Below are positions 1,588 through 54,314 of a stretch of 57,987 nt of DNA, piece after piece. Source of the DNA: Verrucomicrobiota bacterium (GTDB lineage: Bacteria > Verrucomicrobiota > Verrucomicrobiia > Verrucomicrobiales > DEV007); contig JAHDID010000039.1 in NCBI GenBank assembly GCA_020630975.1, positions 163-58,149 of the forward strand. Reading direction: 5' to 3'. A model generated the notes under the pieces. That model was not told the DNA's origin. It ran no database searches and saw nothing but the letters and a program-made list of their open reading frames with translations. Positions within the stretch are counted from its first letter, which is position 1. Every line of letters begins with the position of its first letter. A program made the position numbers and the translations under genes.

Positions 1588-1646
1588 TTTGTACCCTATT
1601 CAGTTTCTATTGTACCCTATTCAATTTTTTCTGTACCCTATTCAAT
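1588..1646 (-). repeat. 21-bp tandem repeat, locus 1 (3 units)
   Basis: GTACCCTATTC occurs at 1591, 1612 and 1633 on the plus strand, an exact 21-bp period. Read on the minus strand, the strand of both flanking genes, the unit is AAATTGAATAGGGTACA followed by four variable bases. The array begins about seven bases after the stop codon of the PSD1 cytochrome gene and ends before the DUF1501 start codon. Three further loci in this window carry the same unit with the same spacing. Confidence 0.9.
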
Positions 1647-1652
1647 TTACCA

Positions 1653-4322
1653 TCAATGGATGGTCCGAAACTCGGCACTCATCATCAAAGCCTGACAAAA
1701 GGCGGTTAGCTTCACCTGCTGAGCACTTAGCGTTTCCTCTACCTTTTCCGCCTCAGGCTCAGGATTAGTCCGACCTTTGCCTTTTCCCTTACGGCCCTTG
1801 CCTTTGCCACCTTTACTTTTGCCTTTGCCCTTTCCGACGGAGGCACTTTCGGCCACGGGTTCTGGTGCTGGCAGATCACCGGGATCAAAGCTTTGGACGA
1901 ACTTTACACCCATAGTGATCTCGTTCGCAGTGGCTGGGCGACTGTAGCTGAGTAGGTAGGCATTGCTCACCTGGTCGCGCAGGCTGGTAAAATTTTTCTC
2001 TAGGACTTTAGCCATCGCCACCGAGTTCACATGTAGTAGATCGCTATTCATGAGGTGTAGCGATTGGGGAGCCACATTGGTAGGCGTACGCTGGCCTACG
2101 GTACCCTGCGGATCGGGAAAGTCGAAGAGCCCCAACTCATCTGGCAACGCATCGCGCAGTACAGGTAGATATAGCGAGCGGCCGCGGAAGGTGGAGGTAT
2201 CGAAACTATCTGGGCTCACAGCATCCTGCCCACGACCCAGGCGAGAATTGCCTAGCTCATGGGCAATCGAAGTATCTGGGCGCTGACGCTCTAGCTGGCC
2301 GCTCACCACCAGCATCTGATCGCGCAGCGCCTCGGCATCGAGTTGACGTACATTGGCACGCCAGTGAGTCTCATTAGCGGGGTCGGTAGCGTAGCTGGTC
2401 TCATCGTAGGTGGAAGCTAGCTGATAAGTATCGCTATGCACGATCTCGCGGATCATGGCTTTGATCGACCAATCATTCTCCACAAAGCGAATCGCCAGAT
2501 AATCGAGTAGCTCCGGATTGGTGGGCGGCAGACCAGTGAAGCCAAAATTATCCATAGTCTCGACAATCGGCTTACCGGTGAGATGCATCCAGATACGATT
2601 GACCATGACACGAGATGTCAGTGGATTGTGCTCGGAGGTGATCCACTCGGCCAGCTCGAGACGCCCACTAGCACCCGATGCGATACTGGGCGCATCTGCC
2701 ACCTCGATCACTTCTACGAAACCCCGCTCGACCTGCTGAGCAGGCTTATTGATATCGCCAGAGATCAATACATTTGCATCTCCGACTGAGCCCTCGCGCG
2801 CGCCCATAGCAAATGTCTTGGCCGAGCCATCGGGATTGAGGAAGCTCAGAGCACTCTGTGTGCGGAGGATCTGCTGTTTCAGGCGTACTAGGTCTTTTTT
2901 CTCGATGCCCTCTTGCTCCATCAGCGCCTGCCGCTCTTCTGGACTGGCCTTACCGCCACCTCCAGTTCCTTTGCCCTTACCTTTTCCTTTGGTTCCCTTT
3001 TGGCTTCCTTTATTACCTAGACCGGTATTGCTAGGCCGTCCTCGTAAGTAGTTATTACGAGCGACCAGTTCCTTGAGCTTCGCCTGAGTCTCTTCATAAA
3101 GATTCCCCTGGTCTTCACGACTCATACCGGCATCGGCTATCGGTAGTGGCAGCAGCTCAGAGGTACGGTGATTTTGGTTACCCGCCACTGTGCCCCACAG
3201 TGTCTCGGTGCTACTAAAGATACCGGCCATAGCGTAGTAGTCCGTCGTAGCGATCGGGTCGAATTTGTGATCGTGGCAACGGGCACAGGCTACTGTAGTA
3301 GCCATGAATCCCCGAGTGGTGGTATCGATCTGCTCATCGATCAGATTCATGCGAAAGACCTGGCGATTCTTTTCGTTCTGCTTTTTGGGCCCTAGCGCTA
3401 GGTAGCCGGTAGCGATCAGGTTTTTCTGGCGCTGCTGGTCATCGGCAGCTGGCAGTAGGTCCCCGGCTAGGTGCTCGGTGATGAGTTGATCGTAGGGTTT
3501 GTCCTCGTTGAAGGAGTCGATCACATAGTTGCGAAAGCGCCACGCGTAGGGATAGACGATATTCAGCGTGCCGGATGACTCAGCAAAGCGCACCACATCT
3601 AGCCAATGCCGCCCCCAGCGTTCGCCGTATTGGGGCGAGGCCAGCAGTTGCTCGACTTTTTTCTGATAAGCAGCCGCGGGATCTGCCTTGTAGTCGCGGT
3701 AGAAAGCTTTGACCTCTGGCGGTGTCGGTGGCAGCCCCGTCAGGTCAAAGGTGAGACGCCGCAGTAGTGATAGCGGATCGGCTGCAGCTACGGGCTTCAG
3801 TTCTGCCTCGCGGCGTTTGGCCTCTACTAAAGCATCGATCGACCGTTCCGCAGGGCGCACTGGCATCTGGTAGGCCCAGTGGCTCTTACCCGCCTCGATA
3901 TCGATGGTGCTCTCGGCCACATAGACCTCGCGCTCGCGCGGATCGGGTGCGCCCATCTCTACCCACTTCACCAGCGCATCGATCACATCCTCGGGCATCT
4001 TCTCCTTCGGCGGCATCTCGTAGTCGCGATCCGCCCAAGTGATAGCATCTACGAATAGACTCCACTCAGGCTTTTCCTCATCGAAGATAGGGCCACTACT
4101 ACCGCCCTCGCGCATCGCCTCGCGCGTATCGAGGTACAGGCCGCCCCGCGACTCCCCCGCATCCACCGAGTGGCACTCGTAGCAATATTTGACCAATGCA
4201 GGCCGCACATGAGTCTCGAAGTAGTCGAGCTGCTCTGGCGAAAGCCCCTCCATAGCTGCGGCTACACTGCTGAGCCAAACTAGGGCGACTGTGATGAAAA
4301 CTTGAAAACGAACCATCTGCAT
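1653..4322 (-). CDS. PSD1/DUF1549-DUF1553 cytochrome c-type protein
   Basis: The 889-residue product has a Sec signal peptide (residues 1-23), an N-terminal planctomycete-type cytochrome c domain with haem motif CYECH at residues 47-51, a DUF1549 domain (LLRRLTFDLTGLPPTP region), a second CxxCH motif (CARCHDHKFDPI) in the middle, and a C-terminal DUF1553 domain (RVMVNRIWMHLTG, then TNVAPQSLHLMN). The family is a multidomain exported haem protein usually linked to DUF1501 proteins; its reaction is not established. Two Lys/Gly-rich low-complexity stretches (codons around positions 2950-3020 and 1750-1850) are unusual. Start could be Met1 or Met3. It is upstream of the DUF1501 gene in the same direction. 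Confidence 0.93.
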   Translation of the reverse strand: MQMVRFQVFITVALVWLSSVAAAMEGLSPEQLDYFETHVRPALVKYCYECHSVDAGESRGGLYLDTREAMREGGSSGPIFDEEKPEWSLFVDAITWADRDYEMPPKEKMPEDVIDALVKWVEMGAPDPREREVYVAESTIDIEAGKSHWAYQMPVRPAERSIDALVEAKRREAELKPVAAADPLSLLRRLTFDLTGLPPTPPEVKAFYRDYKADPAAAYQKKVEQLLASPQYGERWGRHWLDVVRFAESSGTLNIVYPYAWRFRNYVIDSFNEDKPYDQLITEHLAGDLLPAADDQQRQKNLIATGYLALGPKKQNEKNRQVFRMNLIDEQIDTTTRGFMATTVACARCHDHKFDPIATTDYYAMAGIFSSTETLWGTVAGNQNHRTSELLPLPIADAGMSREDQGNLYEETQAKLKELVARNNYLRGRPSNTGLGNKGSQKGTKGKGKGKGTGGGGKASPEERQALMEQEGIEKKDLVRLKQQILRTQSALSFLNPDGSAKTFAMGAREGSVGDANVLISGDINKPAQQVERGFVEVIEVADAPSIASGASGRLELAEWITSEHNPLTSRVMVNRIWMHLTGKPIVETMDNFGFTGLPPTNPELLDYLAIRFVENDWSIKAMIREIVHSDTYQLASTYDETSYATDPANETHWRANVRQLDAEALRDQMLVVSGQLERQRPDTSIAHELGNSRLGRGQDAVSPDSFDTSTFRGRSLYLPVLRDALPDELGLFDFPDPQGTVGQRTPTNVAPQSLHLMNSDLLHVNSVAMAKVLEKNFTSLRDQVSNAYLLSYSRPATANEITMGVKFVQSFDPGDLPAPEPVAESASVGKGKGKSKGGKGKGRKGKGKGRTNPEPEAEKVEETLSAQQVKLTAFCQALMMSAEFRTIH

Positions 4323-12636: not shown

Positions 12637-14301
12637 ATGAGTGACGCAAGTATCGAACAAGAGGCAGCTGAGCTAGCCGAGATCAATCAGCAGGGAATCG
12701 GCAGACGCTACGGCTACTACGCCAAGAAATCCGGTCCCGGCTGGCTACAGGGTGCGATCACACTGGGTGGTGGGTCGCTCGGCGGCGCGCTCTTTCTCGG
12801 TAGCTTTATGGGCTACAACTTGATGTGGCTACAGCCCATCGCCATGGTGCTGGGTGTGATCATGCTCAGCGCGATCGCCTACGTCACTCTATCTACCGGC
12901 GATCGCCCATTCCGCTCTGTGAATCGCCACGTCTCTCCAGTGCTCGGCTGGGCATGGCTCATCGCGACCCTCATGGCCAATGTCGTGTGGTGTATGCCCC
13001 AGTTCGCCCTAGGGACAGGAGCGATCCAGCAAAACCTGGGCGGTGGCGCCATTCCCGTATGGGGCTGCGGCATCATTCTGCTGGCCATCGGTCTCTTGGT
13101 TAATTTCTTTTACGGAAAAGGCAGCAAGGGTGTCGAACTATTCGAGCTGATCCTAAAGATCCTCGTCGGTATCGTAGTGGTATCTTTCTTCGGAGTGGTC
13201 GTATCCCTCACGATGTCTGGCGCTCTCGACTGGGGAGCGATCTTTAAAGGACTCATCCCGAATTTAAAGATGCTAAACCAGCCGGCTCCGACCTTTGCTG
13301 AGCCGATCGCTGCGACAGGTAGTTTTGCCGAGTATTGGACGGGTGTCATCAGCTCCAAGCAGTTCGATGTGATCATCGCCGCTTTTGCCACTGCCGTGGG
13401 TATCAATATGACCTTCCTGCTGCCCTACTCCATGCTGAAAAAGCGCTGGGGCAAGCACCATCGCCAACTGGCTATTTTTGATCTATCGATCGGCCTGATC
13501 ATTCCTTTTGTCCTAGCCACAGGCTGCGTGGTCATCGCCGCAGCATCTCAGTTTCACACCAAATCTGCTGATGTTCTTTTCGAAGATGGCACGGTCAATG
13601 CCAAGCTCGAGAAGAGCTACAACAGCCTGATCGACGGCCGCATCGGAAAAGAGATAGGAGTAGACGCTCTTGCAGCATTATCGCCAGAGCAACTCGCCGA
13701 GAAGCGCAAGACTCTACCTCTAGCCGACCGCAAGCTGGCGGCATCCCTCGTGAAGCGCGACAACCAGCAGCTAGCCGCAGCACTAGAGCCTCTGGCAGGC
13801 AAGACCGTCGCTCAGCTCATCTTCGGTATAGGTGTGATAGGAATGGCTGTCTCCACCATCATCATCCTCATGCTCATCAATGGATTCACCTTCTGCGAAA
13901 TGTTTAACAAACCAGGCGACAGAAACATCCATCTCCTAGGTGCGACCATAGCGGGTATCGGCGGCTTCCTCGGCCCGATCTGGCTATGGAGTGGTGCCTC
14001 TAAAGCTGCTCTGGCTGTGCCCACTTCCGTCATCGGTGGTAGCCTGCTACCTATCGCCTACTTCACCTTTCTCCTGCTGATGAACAGCAAGAAAGTGCTC
14101 GGCGATAATATGCCCACAGGTGGCAAACGCCTATTTTGGAATGTGCTCATGACCATCTCCACCATCGTGGCAGCGGCAGCTTCCATCAAAGTACTCTGGG
14201 CGAAGGGACAGTGGGGACAAATCGGCGTCTATGCACTGATCGCTCTTTTCATCATCGGCACCATAGGTTTCATTATCAATAACAACAAATCTGAGGCATA
14301 A
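12637..14301 (+). CDS. NRAMP-like (SLC11) membrane transporter
   Basis: The 554-residue protein is predominantly hydrophobic with about eleven membrane helices. It starts with a soluble tail, then GPGWLQGAITLGGGSLGGAL at the place where NRAMP proteins have the TM1 DPGN motif, and has GINMTFLLPYSMLKKRWG where TM6 would carry the AxxMPH motif. It also contains a large hydrophilic insert (about residues 305-385) between two helices. The overall pattern matches proteins annotated as 'divalent metal cation transporter' in Planctomycetes and Verrucomicrobia. The canonical metal ligands (Asp, Asn, Met) are not visible, so the substrate is uncertain. An 8-bp GC-rich repeat and two 21-bp units follow the gene. 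Confidence 0.82.
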   Translation: MSDASIEQEAAELAEINQQGIGRRYGYYAKKSGPGWLQGAITLGGGSLGGALFLGSFMGYNLMWLQPIAMVLGVIMLSAIAYVTLSTGDRPFRSVNRHVSPVLGWAWLIATLMANVVWCMPQFALGTGAIQQNLGGGAIPVWGCGIILLAIGLLVNFFYGKGSKGVELFELILKILVGIVVVSFFGVVVSLTMSGALDWGAIFKGLIPNLKMLNQPAPTFAEPIAATGSFAEYWTGVISSKQFDVIIAAFATAVGINMTFLLPYSMLKKRWGKHHRQLAIFDLSIGLIIPFVLATGCVVIAAASQFHTKSADVLFEDGTVNAKLEKSYNSLIDGRIGKEIGVDALAALSPEQLAEKRKTLPLADRKLAASLVKRDNQQLAAALEPLAGKTVAQLIFGIGVIGMAVSTIIILMLINGFTFCEMFNKPGDRNIHLLGATIAGIGGFLGPIWLWSGASKAALAVPTSVIGGSLLPIAYFTFLLLMNSKKVLGDNMPTGGKRLFWNVLMTISTIVAAAASIKVLWAKGQWGQIGVYALIALFIIGTIGFIINNNKSEA

Positions 14302-14387: not shown

Positions 14388-14426
14388 TTTCAATAGGGTA
14401 CAATTTTCATTCAATAGGGTACAATC
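14388..14426 (+). repeat. 21-bp tandem repeat, locus 2 (2 units)
   Basis: TCAATAGGGTAC occurs at 14390 and 14411, 21 bases apart, in plus orientation, the direction of both flanking genes. The second unit ends about 30 bases before the oxidoreductase start codon, so here the repeat sits closer to the next gene than to the previous one. Confidence 0.9.
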
Positions 14427-39991: not shown

Positions 39992-40090
39992 ACTTTAAGC
40001 CTATCAGTATTTATTCGTATCACCTCGTAGTGTTTATCAGCGCCGGGAATCCAGAGATATTTTGTGCGCCCCCCTAGCCTTTCACGGTTT

Positions 40091-40147
40091 TGACCCTATT
40101 GAGCTGAAATTGTACCCTATTCAGTCAAAATTGTACCCTATTGAATC
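40091..40147 (-). repeat. 21-bp tandem repeat, locus 3 (3 units)
   Basis: ACCCTATT begins at 40093, 40114 and 40135, again exactly 21 bases apart. On the minus strand the units read TTCAATAGGGTACAATTT, CTGAATAGGGTACAATTT and CTCAATAGGGTCAAAA. The array starts five bases past the stop codon of the NTF2-like gene at 40152. Confidence 0.9.
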
Positions 40148-40151
40148 TAGG

Positions 40152-41399
40152 CTATTTGCTCTTGATCCAGGCGATCTTCAGCCCTGCAGGCGTGTGGGTG
40201 AGGCGCATGGTAGAGCCTGCCACACCTTTGGATGTCTTGGCACCATTGCGGACTTCGTAACCTGTCTTGGCCTGCACATCCCAGGAGCCGCTAGAAAGCG
40301 GAGTAATGATAGGCTTCTCTGCCAGCCAGTAGCGTCGATTGGGCCAGAGCTTGATGTACGCCTTCCTATCCTTGATGATTTTCTCCGTGGTCGGAGAGCT
40401 CATCCCGAAAAAGGTGGTGATGTTGGGGTGCAGGAAATCGAGAGATGCCGTGGGATCATTCACCTCACCTGCGGCAGCGAAGGAATCTAGAAACAAATTG
40501 ATCTGCTCGCGCTCAAAGCGGCTATAGATCGTCTCTGTCGATGCATCGGACGGCGCGCTAGTAGGAGTCTCCTGCTGCTGTTTTTGGCTATCCTGCTGCT
40601 GAATCGAGGCTGGAGCGGCCGATGCCTTGGCCTCGCTGATGTCGATGATCTGGTAGCTGTCTGAGCCTCGGCGTACTTTGAAATAATCCGACACTGCGCC
40701 GGAGGCCGACTTGGTGCCATTGCTGACACGGTAGCGCACGCGAGTCATCACTTCGTAAGTATTGCCACTCTGCCCGAGCAGCACGGGCGCACCATCGATG
40801 ATGTATTCGCGGCGAGGCCAGCGCTCGATGTAGGTGGCGCGATCCTTGCGGATGGTCGAGTGACTGATCCCCTTGCGACCAAAATAGTTGTCCACGCGGT
40901 CGGCATAGAAAGGCAGCAGTGCCTCGGGATCGTTCACTGTGCTGTTTTGATTAAAAGCATAGAGGAAAGCGACCAAATCCTGCGGCACCTGCCCACTCGA
41001 TGGCACCCACGATGGACTATTGGGCCCCGATGGAGCTGGTGCCTCTGGCTGCGGAGTTGGCGCTTTATTGTCCACTGGCGGCGGAGGCAGCACCTCATCT
41101 GAGCCCGTGGTAATCGGTGGCGGCGGTAGCTCGGGCTCCGTTGGCTGCGGCTCGGCGTGCTCCTCGTAGTAGCGCTGGGTGGGATTGGAGTACGGGATGC
41201 GGAAGATCTTTTTAGCAATGGGATCCTCTGCCAGACTACCAGGCTCGAGCCCGGCCACATCGAGACGGCGATTCGGGTCGAAAGGGCTGATCACCACATC
41301 TGGCTGATCCGTCGGCGTCGCGACGGGGTATTCTTCCTGAGCAAGTAGCGTCGCGGAGGTAAGAACGCAGATAAATAGCAAATGGCACCAAAACTTCAT
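40152..41399 (-). CDS. Secreted protein with two NTF2-like domains
   Basis: The start was set at MKFWCHLLFICVLTSATLLA because it gives a clean signal peptide; the open frame runs 66 codons further and would overlap the cardiolipin synthase gene. The 415-residue product has a Pro-rich linker (PTEPELPPPPITTG) and two homologous domains: FLYAFNQNSTVNDPEALLPF..YFGRKG..YIERWPRR and FLDSFAAAGEVNDPTASLDF..FFGMSS..YIKLWPNR, with a shared RVSNGTKSASG/VRNGAKTSKG end. This is the SnoaL/NTF2 fold in tandem, probably from internal duplication. Role unknown; likely periplasmic or cell wall associated. Confidence 0.82.
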   Translation of the reverse strand: MKFWCHLLFICVLTSATLLAQEEYPVATPTDQPDVVISPFDPNRRLDVAGLEPGSLAEDPIAKKIFRIPYSNPTQRYYEEHAEPQPTEPELPPPPITTGSDEVLPPPPVDNKAPTPQPEAPAPSGPNSPSWVPSSGQVPQDLVAFLYAFNQNSTVNDPEALLPFYADRVDNYFGRKGISHSTIRKDRATYIERWPRREYIIDGAPVLLGQSGNTYEVMTRVRYRVSNGTKSASGAVSDYFKVRRGSDSYQIIDISEAKASAAPASIQQQDSQKQQQETPTSAPSDASTETIYSRFEREQINLFLDSFAAAGEVNDPTASLDFLHPNITTFFGMSSPTTEKIIKDRKAYIKLWPNRRYWLAEKPIITPLSSGSWDVQAKTGYEVRNGAKTSKGVAGSTMRLTHTPAGLKIAWIKSK

Positions 41400-52304: not shown

Positions 52305-52655
52305 TCATCTCTGACGCTTCTGAGTCATCATGAATTCATTGCCCTCGGGATCGACACACATCGCTAGGTGCAGTGGATCTTCCTCGGTATCGACAGGCTC
52401 TCGAGTGAGCGCACCGCCGCACTCCTGCAGCCTCACGATGCCCTCGCGCAGATCATCTAGCTGAAAGGACAATCCGGTCCAGGTCCGCTTGCCCTCGCCA
52501 TCGGCATGGATCCCGATGGTAGCCCCGCAGACGACCACCTCGCTCCACACCTCGGTGCGGAGTGTCGGCTCGCCATCAAATAGCTCCTGGTAGAATTTGA
52601 TCGCGCGCTCCATGTCTTGCGCCCAGATTGCGTATTTCACCTTTTGTACTTTCAT
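52305..52655 (-). CDS. VOC-superfamily (glyoxalase/bleomycin resistance-like) protein
   Basis: The start was set at MKVQKVKYAIWAQDMERAIK; a longer frame upstream overlaps the divergent methyltransferase and is not conserved. The 116-residue product has the beta-alpha-beta-beta-beta VOC fold: AIKFYQELFDGEPTLRTEVW, then VVCGATIGIHADGEGKRTW and LHLAMCVDPEGNEFMMTQ (the final D-PxGN is typical). It could bind a metal and a small ligand. The substrate is unknown. It is divergent from the methyltransferase with 45 bp between starts. Confidence 0.88.
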   Translation of the reverse strand: MKVQKVKYAIWAQDMERAIKFYQELFDGEPTLRTEVWSEVVVCGATIGIHADGEGKRTWTGLSFQLDDLREGIVRLQECGGALTREPVDTEEDPLHLAMCVDPEGNEFMMTQKRQR

Positions 52656-52700
52656 CGTTCTGCAGTATGGGACGGGAATGGACGATCGACCAGTCGCTAT

Positions 52701-53705
52701 ATGAGATCTCGCAGTTCCGATGCCATACGAGAGTTTTTGCAGGATTCTTTCGCCCGCGCGGGCGGATCGATGCCCTTCCACGACTACATGGCACTGGCTC
52801 TCTACTCCCCCGAGCATGGCTACTACTCCTCGCAGATCGCAGATGTCGGTGGCAATCGGGCCGATTTCTCGACTTGGGCGACGCTCGGCGACCTCGGTAG
52901 GACGGTGGCTAGCTGGGTGAAAGCCGAGATCGCTCACCACGACTGGACTAGCGAGACCGTGCACCTGATCGAGATCGGCGCAGGCGACGGCTCACTCGCC
53001 TACCAACTCCTCAAAAGCCTAGGCTGGCGCCAGCGCCGCCGAGTGCACTACCACATCGTAGATATCTCGCCGCCCCTGCGCAGCCTCCAGCAGCAGCGCC
53101 TGAAAAGATACTCCGTGAGCTGGCACGCCTCCGTGCAGCAGGCCATAGCAGCCGCCCGCGGTCGAGCCATCCTTTTCTCCAATGAACTGGTCGATGCCTT
53201 TCCCGCCCAATGGCTCTGCTGGGATGGCGCGGGATGGCAGGAAGTCCAAGTGAACTACGACCCTAGCTCAGGCCTGCGAGAGACCTTTAGACCGAGCGAG
53301 GTGACGATAGACTGGCAGCCCCAAAAAACAGGTCAACGCATCGAGCGACATCCCAGCTATCGAGACTGGCTGAGTGAATGGCTACCAGCTCTCAAAGCCG
53401 GCTCCCTCCTGACGATCGACTACGGTGGACGAGACTGGCCCTCGATCTACACTCCCAAGCCTGCAGGCACCATGCGCGGCTATCACCAGCAGCGCCGGAT
53501 CGAAGGTGGCGCTATCTACCAGAGATTTGGCCAACAAGATCTGACTGCCGATGTGAACTTTGGCGAAATCCAAAAATGGGGCGAAGCGCAAGGGCTGCAA
53601 ACTATCGAGCTAAACGATCTCGCCCGATTTTTCGAGGCGTATGATGCTCCTGTCGAGCGCGTAGAGGCCGCCGAGGCGTTTCTCGTGCTACACCAGCGAC
53701 TTTAG
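52701..53705 (+). CDS. MidA/NDUFAF7-like SAM-dependent methyltransferase
   Basis: The start was set at MRSRSSDAIREFLQDSFARA; the open frame begins 28 codons earlier but overlaps the divergent gene. The 334-residue product follows the DUF185 family layout: MPFHDYMALALYSPEHGYYS, FSTWATLGDLGRTVA, HLIEIGAGDGSLAYQLL (SAM-binding), IVDISPPLRSLQQQRL, and LFSNELVDAFPA. In mitochondria the homologue methylates an arginine of complex I; bacterial roles are unclear. The length is slightly shorter than usual but the motifs are intact. Confidence 0.9.
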   Translation: MRSRSSDAIREFLQDSFARAGGSMPFHDYMALALYSPEHGYYSSQIADVGGNRADFSTWATLGDLGRTVASWVKAEIAHHDWTSETVHLIEIGAGDGSLAYQLLKSLGWRQRRRVHYHIVDISPPLRSLQQQRLKRYSVSWHASVQQAIAAARGRAILFSNELVDAFPAQWLCWDGAGWQEVQVNYDPSSGLRETFRPSEVTIDWQPQKTGQRIERHPSYRDWLSEWLPALKAGSLLTIDYGGRDWPSIYTPKPAGTMRGYHQQRRIEGGAIYQRFGQQDLTADVNFGEIQKWGEAQGLQTIELNDLARFFEAYDAPVERVEAAEAFLVLHQRL

Positions 53706-53710
53706 GGCGA

Positions 53711-53750
53711 TTGCACCCTATTGAGTCAAAACTGTACCCTATTGAATTTC
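53711..53750 (-). repeat. 21-bp tandem repeat, locus 4 (2 units)
   Basis: ACCCTATTGA begins at 53715 and 53736, 21 bases apart. On the minus strand the units are TTCAATAGGGTACAGTTT and CTCAATAGGGTGCAAT. It lies between convergent genes, 25-64 bases past the stop codon of the minus-strand gene at 53775, again in the orientation of the gene it follows. Confidence 0.9.
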
Positions 53751-53774: not shown

Positions 53775-54314
53775 CTAGAGCTGATCCAACGTGTTGAGAA
53801 CTTTAGTCCGATTTTCTCTGACGTCCTCAGGCTGGTAGTCAGGAAACTCCCTCTGTAGGAGCTCATACCAGCTGGCAGATTCCTCGTACTTCTGGCGAGC
53901 CTCGTCTAGCCTTCCCTTTGCCTCTAGCTCAGCTCCGACTTCAGCCGCGGAGTAAGCTCGCACCCATACTTTTAATGGATCATTCTCAGCCAAGACAATT
54001 TCAGAGGTGCGAACCGAAGCTTCACCTACGGGCAGCGTCAGCGCAGGCAGCACATTCGCATCGATCACCTCGACCCGCTCGATCGCCTCTGGACTGGCCG
54101 TGGATGGCGTGATCTCCTCATCTAAAATACTCCGGCGATAGCGATCATCCGATGCAGAGGTCTCATATTCAACGACTTTGGCACGCTCTGCTCTAGCTAG
54201 ACCGAGAGATTTCTCACTCGGCGGAGGCAGGTTTTCCAAAAGAGAAAGGGCCCAAATGGCACAAAGTGCCGTGCAGATCGCCCAGATGATGAACCAAAAT
54301 GCTCTAGAATTCAT
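53775..54314 (-). CDS. Membrane-anchored hypothetical protein
   Basis: The 179-residue product has an N-terminal anchor helix (FWFIIWAICTALCAIWALSL, residues 6-25) and an acidic, helical extracytoplasmic part that ends with a TPR-like unit (ELEAKGRLDEARQKYEESAS, then WYELLQREFPDYQPEDVREN). It may take part in protein contacts at the membrane. I do not recognise a family. The 283 bases upstream (to leuA) are AT-rich near its start and otherwise without recognised features. Confidence 0.75.
   Translation of the reverse strand: MNSRAFWFIIWAICTALCAIWALSLLENLPPPSEKSLGLARAERAKVVEYETSASDDRYRRSILDEEITPSTASPEAIERVEVIDANVLPALTLPVGEASVRTSEIVLAENDPLKVWVRAYSAAEVGAELEAKGRLDEARQKYEESASWYELLQREFPDYQPEDVRENRTKVLNTLDQL

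Follow-up and report, generated by a model that had tools for sequence, protein, structure and literature searches.

What is the short repeat that recurs at four places in the 57,987-nucleotide window, the whole stretch of DNA analysed here, and what could keep its units at a fixed distance? The original prediction counted ten units in four arrays, each with a period of exactly 21 bases, and both statements held, the arrays containing three, two, three and two units, respectively, of AATAGGGTACA or its complement, 21 bp apart (Table 1). Eight of the window units matched TCAATAGGGTACAATTT with three or fewer mismatches, against a chance expectation of 0.06. With genes assigned by a simple gene caller, the first array lies 7 bp past the stop codon of the gene at 1653-4322 (-), the second lies 87 bp past that of the gene at 12637-14301 (+), and the third lies 6 bp past a gene stop at 40152 (-). 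The fourth is located between convergent genes, 28 bp past the stop codon of 53775-54314 (-) and 3 bp from that of 52617-53705 (+). As had been claimed, each of the four window arrays comes after a stop codon of its own strand, within 30 bp of it in three cases.

Table 1. Arrays in the window (window coordinates) and repeat composites next to arrays elsewhere in the genome (contig coordinates)
Feature	Location	Strand	Details	Period (bp)
Array, 3 units	1590..1642	(-)	cores 1590-1600, 1611-1621, 1632-1642	21
Array, 2 units	14392..14423	(+)	cores 14392-14402, 14413-14423	21
Array, 3 units	40090..40142	(-)	cores 40132-40142, 40111-40121, degenerate 40090-40100	21
Array, 2 units	53712..53743	(-)	cores 53733-53743, 53712-53722 (TGCACCCTATT on + strand)	21
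Repeat composite, ~370 nt	C40:62456-62830		directly 3' of an array	
Repeat composite, ~370 nt	C15:179312-179679		directly 3' of an array	
Repeat composite, ~370 nt	C9:50707-51071		directly 3' of an array	
Repeat composite, 180-nt copy	C23:41033-41211		directly 3' of a fourth array	

The genome from which the window comes is a 7.14-Mb draft of 158 contigs, whose order on the chromosome is not set and whose ends hide some neighbours. It contains 695 exact AATAGGGTACA cores and 338 exact core pairs at 21 bp, compared with 4 and 0, respectively, for the reversed control, and the exact pairs, among those listed, were spread over contigs C1 to C158. A 1.93-Mb sample yielded 99 arrays (71 with two units, 20 with three, 1 with four and 7 single), or about one per 19.5 kb, and 111 of the 116 unit-to-unit distances below 120 bp in this sample were exactly 21 bp. 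Alignment of the 58 arrays in the first 1.23 Mb showed that the unit extends through flanking bases to about AYTSAATAGGGTACART around the core AATAGGGTACA, that its middle of about 4 bases is mostly T-rich, and that the core is conserved and the linker variable. The flanks of the arrays mostly had no sequence in common between arrays. At C31:169329-169387 and C153:58806-58837, units with a GATCGAAATC linker (AATAGGGTACGATCGAAATC) were observed at the same 21-bp period; these linkers resemble those of the relatives with a 22-bp period described below, and such units are perhaps an older subtype. One array has DUF1501 and PSCyt/PSD1 proteins encoded next to it, which would fit a bacterium of the PVC group.

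The positions of the arrays relative to genes were examined in the sample using a simple hexamer caller, which gives approximate start positions. Only 10 of 97 arrays overlapped a called gene, against 80.5 expected, and three sat well inside one, confirming the intergenic location that had been predicted. The arrays had also been said to share the orientation of the preceding gene, which is true of all four in the window; in the sample, however, the gene on the 5' side was on the array strand in only 50 of 97 cases, and the agreement in the window was therefore a small-sample effect. Within gaps between co-directional genes, 23 arrays were sense and 31 antisense. This random orientation relative to upstream genes counts against the gene-end part of the claim. 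Despite it, gene 3' ends were nearer to an array on its 5' side, at a median of 18 bp with 31/45 within 30 bp, than on its 3' side, where the median was 67 bp and 18/53 fell within 30 bp (p = 0.005); this is a trace of the predicted gene-end pattern that has no explanation in the architectural reading favoured below. Arrays occurred in 22 of 156 convergent gaps versus 11 of 227 divergent gaps (Fisher p = 0.0025 by gap number), an enrichment that was weak when scaled by available bases (p = 0.08). No replication polarity of the Chi/KOPS kind, in which orientation follows replication, was detected in the sample, array orientation agreeing with local GC skew in 48 of 99 cases.

We found that the arrays avoid one another. 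Of 75 distances between neighbours in the sample, 4 were below 5 kb, whereas random intergenic placement gave 19.9 when every gap was equally likely and 25.4 when gaps were weighted by length, and none of 2000 trials in either model was as low. At least one member of each of the four close pairs had no more than one exact unit; among arrays with at least two exact units, the smallest of 57 neighbour distances was 6989 bp. For a test on unseen contigs, the 338 exact pairs were split into five disjoint patterns (73+119+39+50+57), with 319 positions listed, and contigs C43-C130 were used, where the position lists are complete, C40 and the contigs past C130 being left out. On 58 of these contigs, 155 arrays gave 2 of 97 distances below 5 kb against 22 expected at random, a count of exact-pair arrays only, which misses weaker arrays in between. 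The recurrence of the exclusion outside the discovery set provides an independent confirmation. For pooling the two sets, only the 80 of 99 sample arrays with at least two exact units were counted. Of the 154 pooled distances between neighbours, 2 were below 5 kb against 33.6 expected (p = 3e-14), and the distances had a median of 16.7 kb and a coefficient of variation of 0.66. The pooled pair distances contained no lattice, a 15-kb period included, and successive gaps were uncorrelated. Three array-free stretches on C79 and C129 were of near-equal length (70,812, 71,276 and 70,989 bp), which may reflect chance or repeated islands.

The arrays were also scarce in foreign-looking DNA. We ranked 186 segments of 10 kb by their tetranucleotide distance from the sample mean and found an array density of 0.46-0.67 per segment in the least deviant 90%, compared with 0.05 in the 19 most deviant segments, which held 1 array versus 9.3 expected, a count that none of 5000 permutations matched. 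The most deviant segments hold about twice the called intergenic DNA, part of which may be genes missed by the caller in atypical DNA. The distance to the nearest array grew with compositional deviance (rank correlation 0.24, p = 0.001).

Searches of other genomes were carried out with exact and with looser patterns. No exact 21-bp pair was found in 35 relatives, and no 21-bp pair with a 9-base core in a further 386 genomes of the phylum, which made the repeats appear confined to their own genome. This conclusion was overturned by a search of 190 genomes for AYAGGGTA pairs with periods of 19-24 bp, in which diverged cores may still escape exact matching. It returned 380 pairs in the own genome, 725 in G421, 16 in G433, 18 in G435 and 1-7 in each of fourteen more genomes of the same family. 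A pair was thus present in 18 of 74 family genomes and absent from 56, and outside the family it occurred in 1 of 116 genomes, as a simple repeat. In the reversed controls, six genomes had one match each, and the eight family genomes with a single match are individually near this background. Among the matches listed, the period was 21 bp in the own genome (21 matches) and G018 (2), 20 bp in G453 (1), and 22 bp in every match of the remaining fifteen genomes of the family, with 21 of 21 for G421. The latter is the nearest relative sampled, with 67% DNA identity at one locus, and carries AAYAGGGTACA arrays with a 22-bp period, as read in 3 arrays. At the one locus comparable between the two genomes, the array adjoins the same operon but at its opposite end, indicating that the sites have not kept their positions. 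The way in which arrays exclude one another, their rarity in foreign-looking DNA and the 22-bp period of the relatives all go beyond what could be seen in the window.

The linkers of the 22-bp relatives were analysed using 62 of the 110 listed matches; those left out were 21 from the own genome, 21 from G421, 2 of 18 from G435 (other linker type), 2 from G018 (13-base linker), 1 from G453 (12-base linker) and 1 from G029 (simple repeat). In these 62 linkers, the middle resembles a GNTC-N3-GANC dyad with 4-bp arms and a 3-base loop, and base 3 can pair with base 11 in 36 of them versus 17 expected. The 3-11 pairing arises from differences between species, being mostly T-A in G433, A-T in G435 and G-C in G009, and no covariation at these bases was found within any of four genomes tested. 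The pair 2-12 gave p = 0.24 overall and p = 0.04 only in G419. Such a symmetric change of the dyad would be the trace expected of a dimeric binder shifting its specificity, or of a hairpin fixed separately in each species.

These results lead us to favour, tentatively and with somewhat less than even confidence, the explanation that the arrays are native, chromosome-wide binding sites of one putative sequence-specific, probably oligomerising DNA-binding protein with an architectural role at the scale of the chromosome. We infer all three of its elements, protein binding, oligomerisation and the architectural role. The array clusters suggest landing sites of such a protein, which would mark or fold the chromosome. 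Each site would in most cases offer two or three cores spaced by exactly two turns of the helix, and at that distance the protomers would line up next to each other along the same face of the DNA; adjacent protomers might then oligomerise or bridge sites. The role in chromosome organisation would be that of an anchor, a domain boundary, or a loading or unloading site of condensin or topoisomerase. The part of the original interpretation that proposed a protein on one face of the DNA would fit the fixed period and the random orientation, both relative to genes (50/97) and to GC skew (48/99). Counting for this explanation are the fixed period, the conserved core with variable linker, the exclusion, the scarcity in foreign DNA, the random orientation, the 22-bp period that G421 has as its own, and the dyad of the relatives. 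Counting against it are the exclusion without a regular lattice, the sites not kept in place in G421 and the arrays that adjoin repeat composites; the uneven family size (380 and 725 pairs, 18 or fewer in 16 others, and 0 in 56 of 74) is odd for a needed chromosome component. A more specific version, a spacing system in which a putative oligomerising protein on phased arrays about 10-20 kb apart sets the domain size and in which protein and site co-evolve, with a 21-bp step here and a 22-bp step in the relative, is conceivable, and we regard it as doubtful. Bacterial chromosome domains are mostly ascribed to transcription and to general nucleoid proteins. Hundreds of phased sites that exclude one another at kilobase range and seldom occur in foreign DNA would constitute an unusual mark encoded in the sequence, either of chromosome structure or of self DNA.

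The same observations were weighed against explanations at the level of single genes. An RNA element at gene 3' ends, acting as a terminator, a stabiliser or a protein-binding 3' UTR, had been offered in the original prediction as a modular alternative, and the four sense arrays of the window, three of them within 30 bp of a stop codon, are as it would have them, as are the closer gene 3' ends on the sense side genome-wide. In the folding tests, one RNA fold of a window array speaks for it (z = -1.93, 7/200 shuffles as good), whereas the other five, with z-scores of -1.03 to -0.41, and four DNA folds, which ranged from -1.13 to 0.10, speak against it. The arrays entering the tests of flanks, arms and duplications were selected, as each test required, for their number of units, the quality of the match, an exact spacing and their distance from the ends of the sequence. 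In 47 of 66 arrays, the mean pairing energy of the flanks equalled that of mismatched flanks, and in 89 of 99 own-genome arrays no test of pairing or covariation between unit arms or outer arms reached p = 0.05, so that the covariation proposed as a check did not appear. Dependencies did exist within own-genome linkers (3-6 and 4-5, p < 0.0005; 8-10, p = 0.0005; 1-10, p = 0.045; 1-8, p = 0.083), which we read as linker types because the bases most often combined at 3-6 do not pair. With an orientation of 50/97, unpaired flanks, otherwise ordinary folds and no Rfam match above the gathering score in the window, an RNA element is very improbable. Operators of a transcription regulator with a large regulon are improbable too, if a little less so. 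Direct repeats two turns apart are typical of the operators of LytTR-type and some other regulators, and the dyad in the relatives' linkers would suit such a site; the random orientation would not, the promoter-bearing divergent gaps were the poorest in arrays by number (11/227 versus 22/156 for convergent gaps), and mutual exclusion over kilobases is not expected of a regulon.

Explanations in which the arrays spread or were gathered have more in their favour. One holds that they are a selfish or formerly mobile short repeat, either REP-like or with transposase-binding arrays, that spread in few lineages; near neighbours would be blocked by something like transposition target immunity, and the foreign regions would have arrived after the spread. 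The very uneven family size among relatives speaks for it, and exclusion without a lattice is what target immunity would give. Four arrays lie directly upstream of repeat composites (Table 1), and two further arrays have 188 nt on their left in common; the composites are a hint of spread by duplication, with partial copies elsewhere in the genome that have no array. Direct transposase-binding repeats about two turns apart, of about 22 bp in the Tn7-like case, occur at Tn7-like or IS21-like ends, and the arrays are like them in this respect. They differ in that two units pointing the same way do not make a pair of transposon ends and no mirrored ends were seen, a pair on C102 being mirrored by coordinates alone. 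In 92 of 99 arrays, the best signal of a target-site duplication (z = 3.3 among 588 offsets) and that of inverted flanks (z = 3.1 among 588 offsets) were taken as noise, and the rve search found one rve integrase domain in the genome, on C119. The scarcity in foreign-looking segments, although these are richer in non-coding DNA, also argues against a selfish repeat, and even if the arrays were one, mutual exclusion among elements of about 32-80 bp would need explaining. On balance, we consider a selfish origin possible and rather doubtful. A self-DNA uptake signal for natural transformation, built up by biased uptake and recombination, is unlikely. Like USS/DUS, in which the motif marks self DNA, the arrays represent a short motif that is present many times over and has related dialects in other genomes of the family, and their scarcity in foreign-looking DNA and random orientation would be expected of such a signal. 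To our knowledge, however, fixed-period arrays of mostly two or three units and a near-exclusive intergenic location are atypical of USS/DUS. The arrays are also phased and far sparser, with 99 in 1.93 Mb and a median neighbour distance of 16.7 kb, than the dense single copies of the Haemophilus USS, for which excerpts of the source give an average spacing of about 1,000 bp (PMC7811141).

Comparison with known chromosomal sites indicates that the arrays may work like matS or BIME sites, yet they belong to neither class as tested. The matS sites bound by MatP in E. coli Ter are likewise short and sequence-specific and are tied to chromosome organisation; in the excerpted account, they occur only within Ter, at uneven intervals and with a density that increases towards dif, and their density matters (PMC10945525). 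The present arrays differ in being mostly two or three phased units across the sampled contigs and in excluding one another, and the exact pairs listed, on C1 to C158 in unset contig order, showed no restriction to one macrodomain. REP and BIME elements also number in the hundreds, are short and intergenic, and are uneven among related species, and excerpts of the source describe a verrucomicrobial example rich in GTAG repeats and head-tail REP dimers as rare or absent in most genomes (PMC3733652). The own-genome units differ in running head to tail at a fixed 21 bp and in forming no stable hairpin: a REP stem of 5-13 bp was not found, window arrays folding like shuffles bar the one at z = -1.93 and 89 arrays having no arm pairing. 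Nor did the conserved context, AATAGGGTACA or AYAGGGTA, include a GTAG or CGTC tag adjoining a stem. A literature search with four family 10-mers and with evenly spaced intergenic repeats, Verrucomicrobia repeats, BIMEs, matS and uptake sequences returned no such family among the matches listed, as judged by title.

Several other repeats were encountered. The composites of Table 1 are REP-like, with internal palindromes GTCGTCCC..GGGACGAC and GGTGGT..ACCACC. The closest exact-pair arrays among those listed, at C102:2552 (-) and C102:4864 (+), are 2.3 kb apart and mirrored as at transposon ends, with no rve domain there among the matches listed. The only match among those listed in a contig collection, on a Nostoc contig, was part of another simple repeat. 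In G421, about 13 dispersed CAATGGGGTG...ACCCTAC / GTAGGG...CACCCCAT repeats were observed at C153:20001-60000; they were dropped as homologues of the array family, since they are confined to one region and resemble, by eye, what we take to be integron attC sites of a cassette array. A tandem-repeat scan of six relatives covered 20-80 kb of each and is weak as a negative. G012 has a long 21-bp tandem repeat, GGATCGACGTAAGCCTGGTTC, which is unrelated in sequence to the array family and possibly coding.
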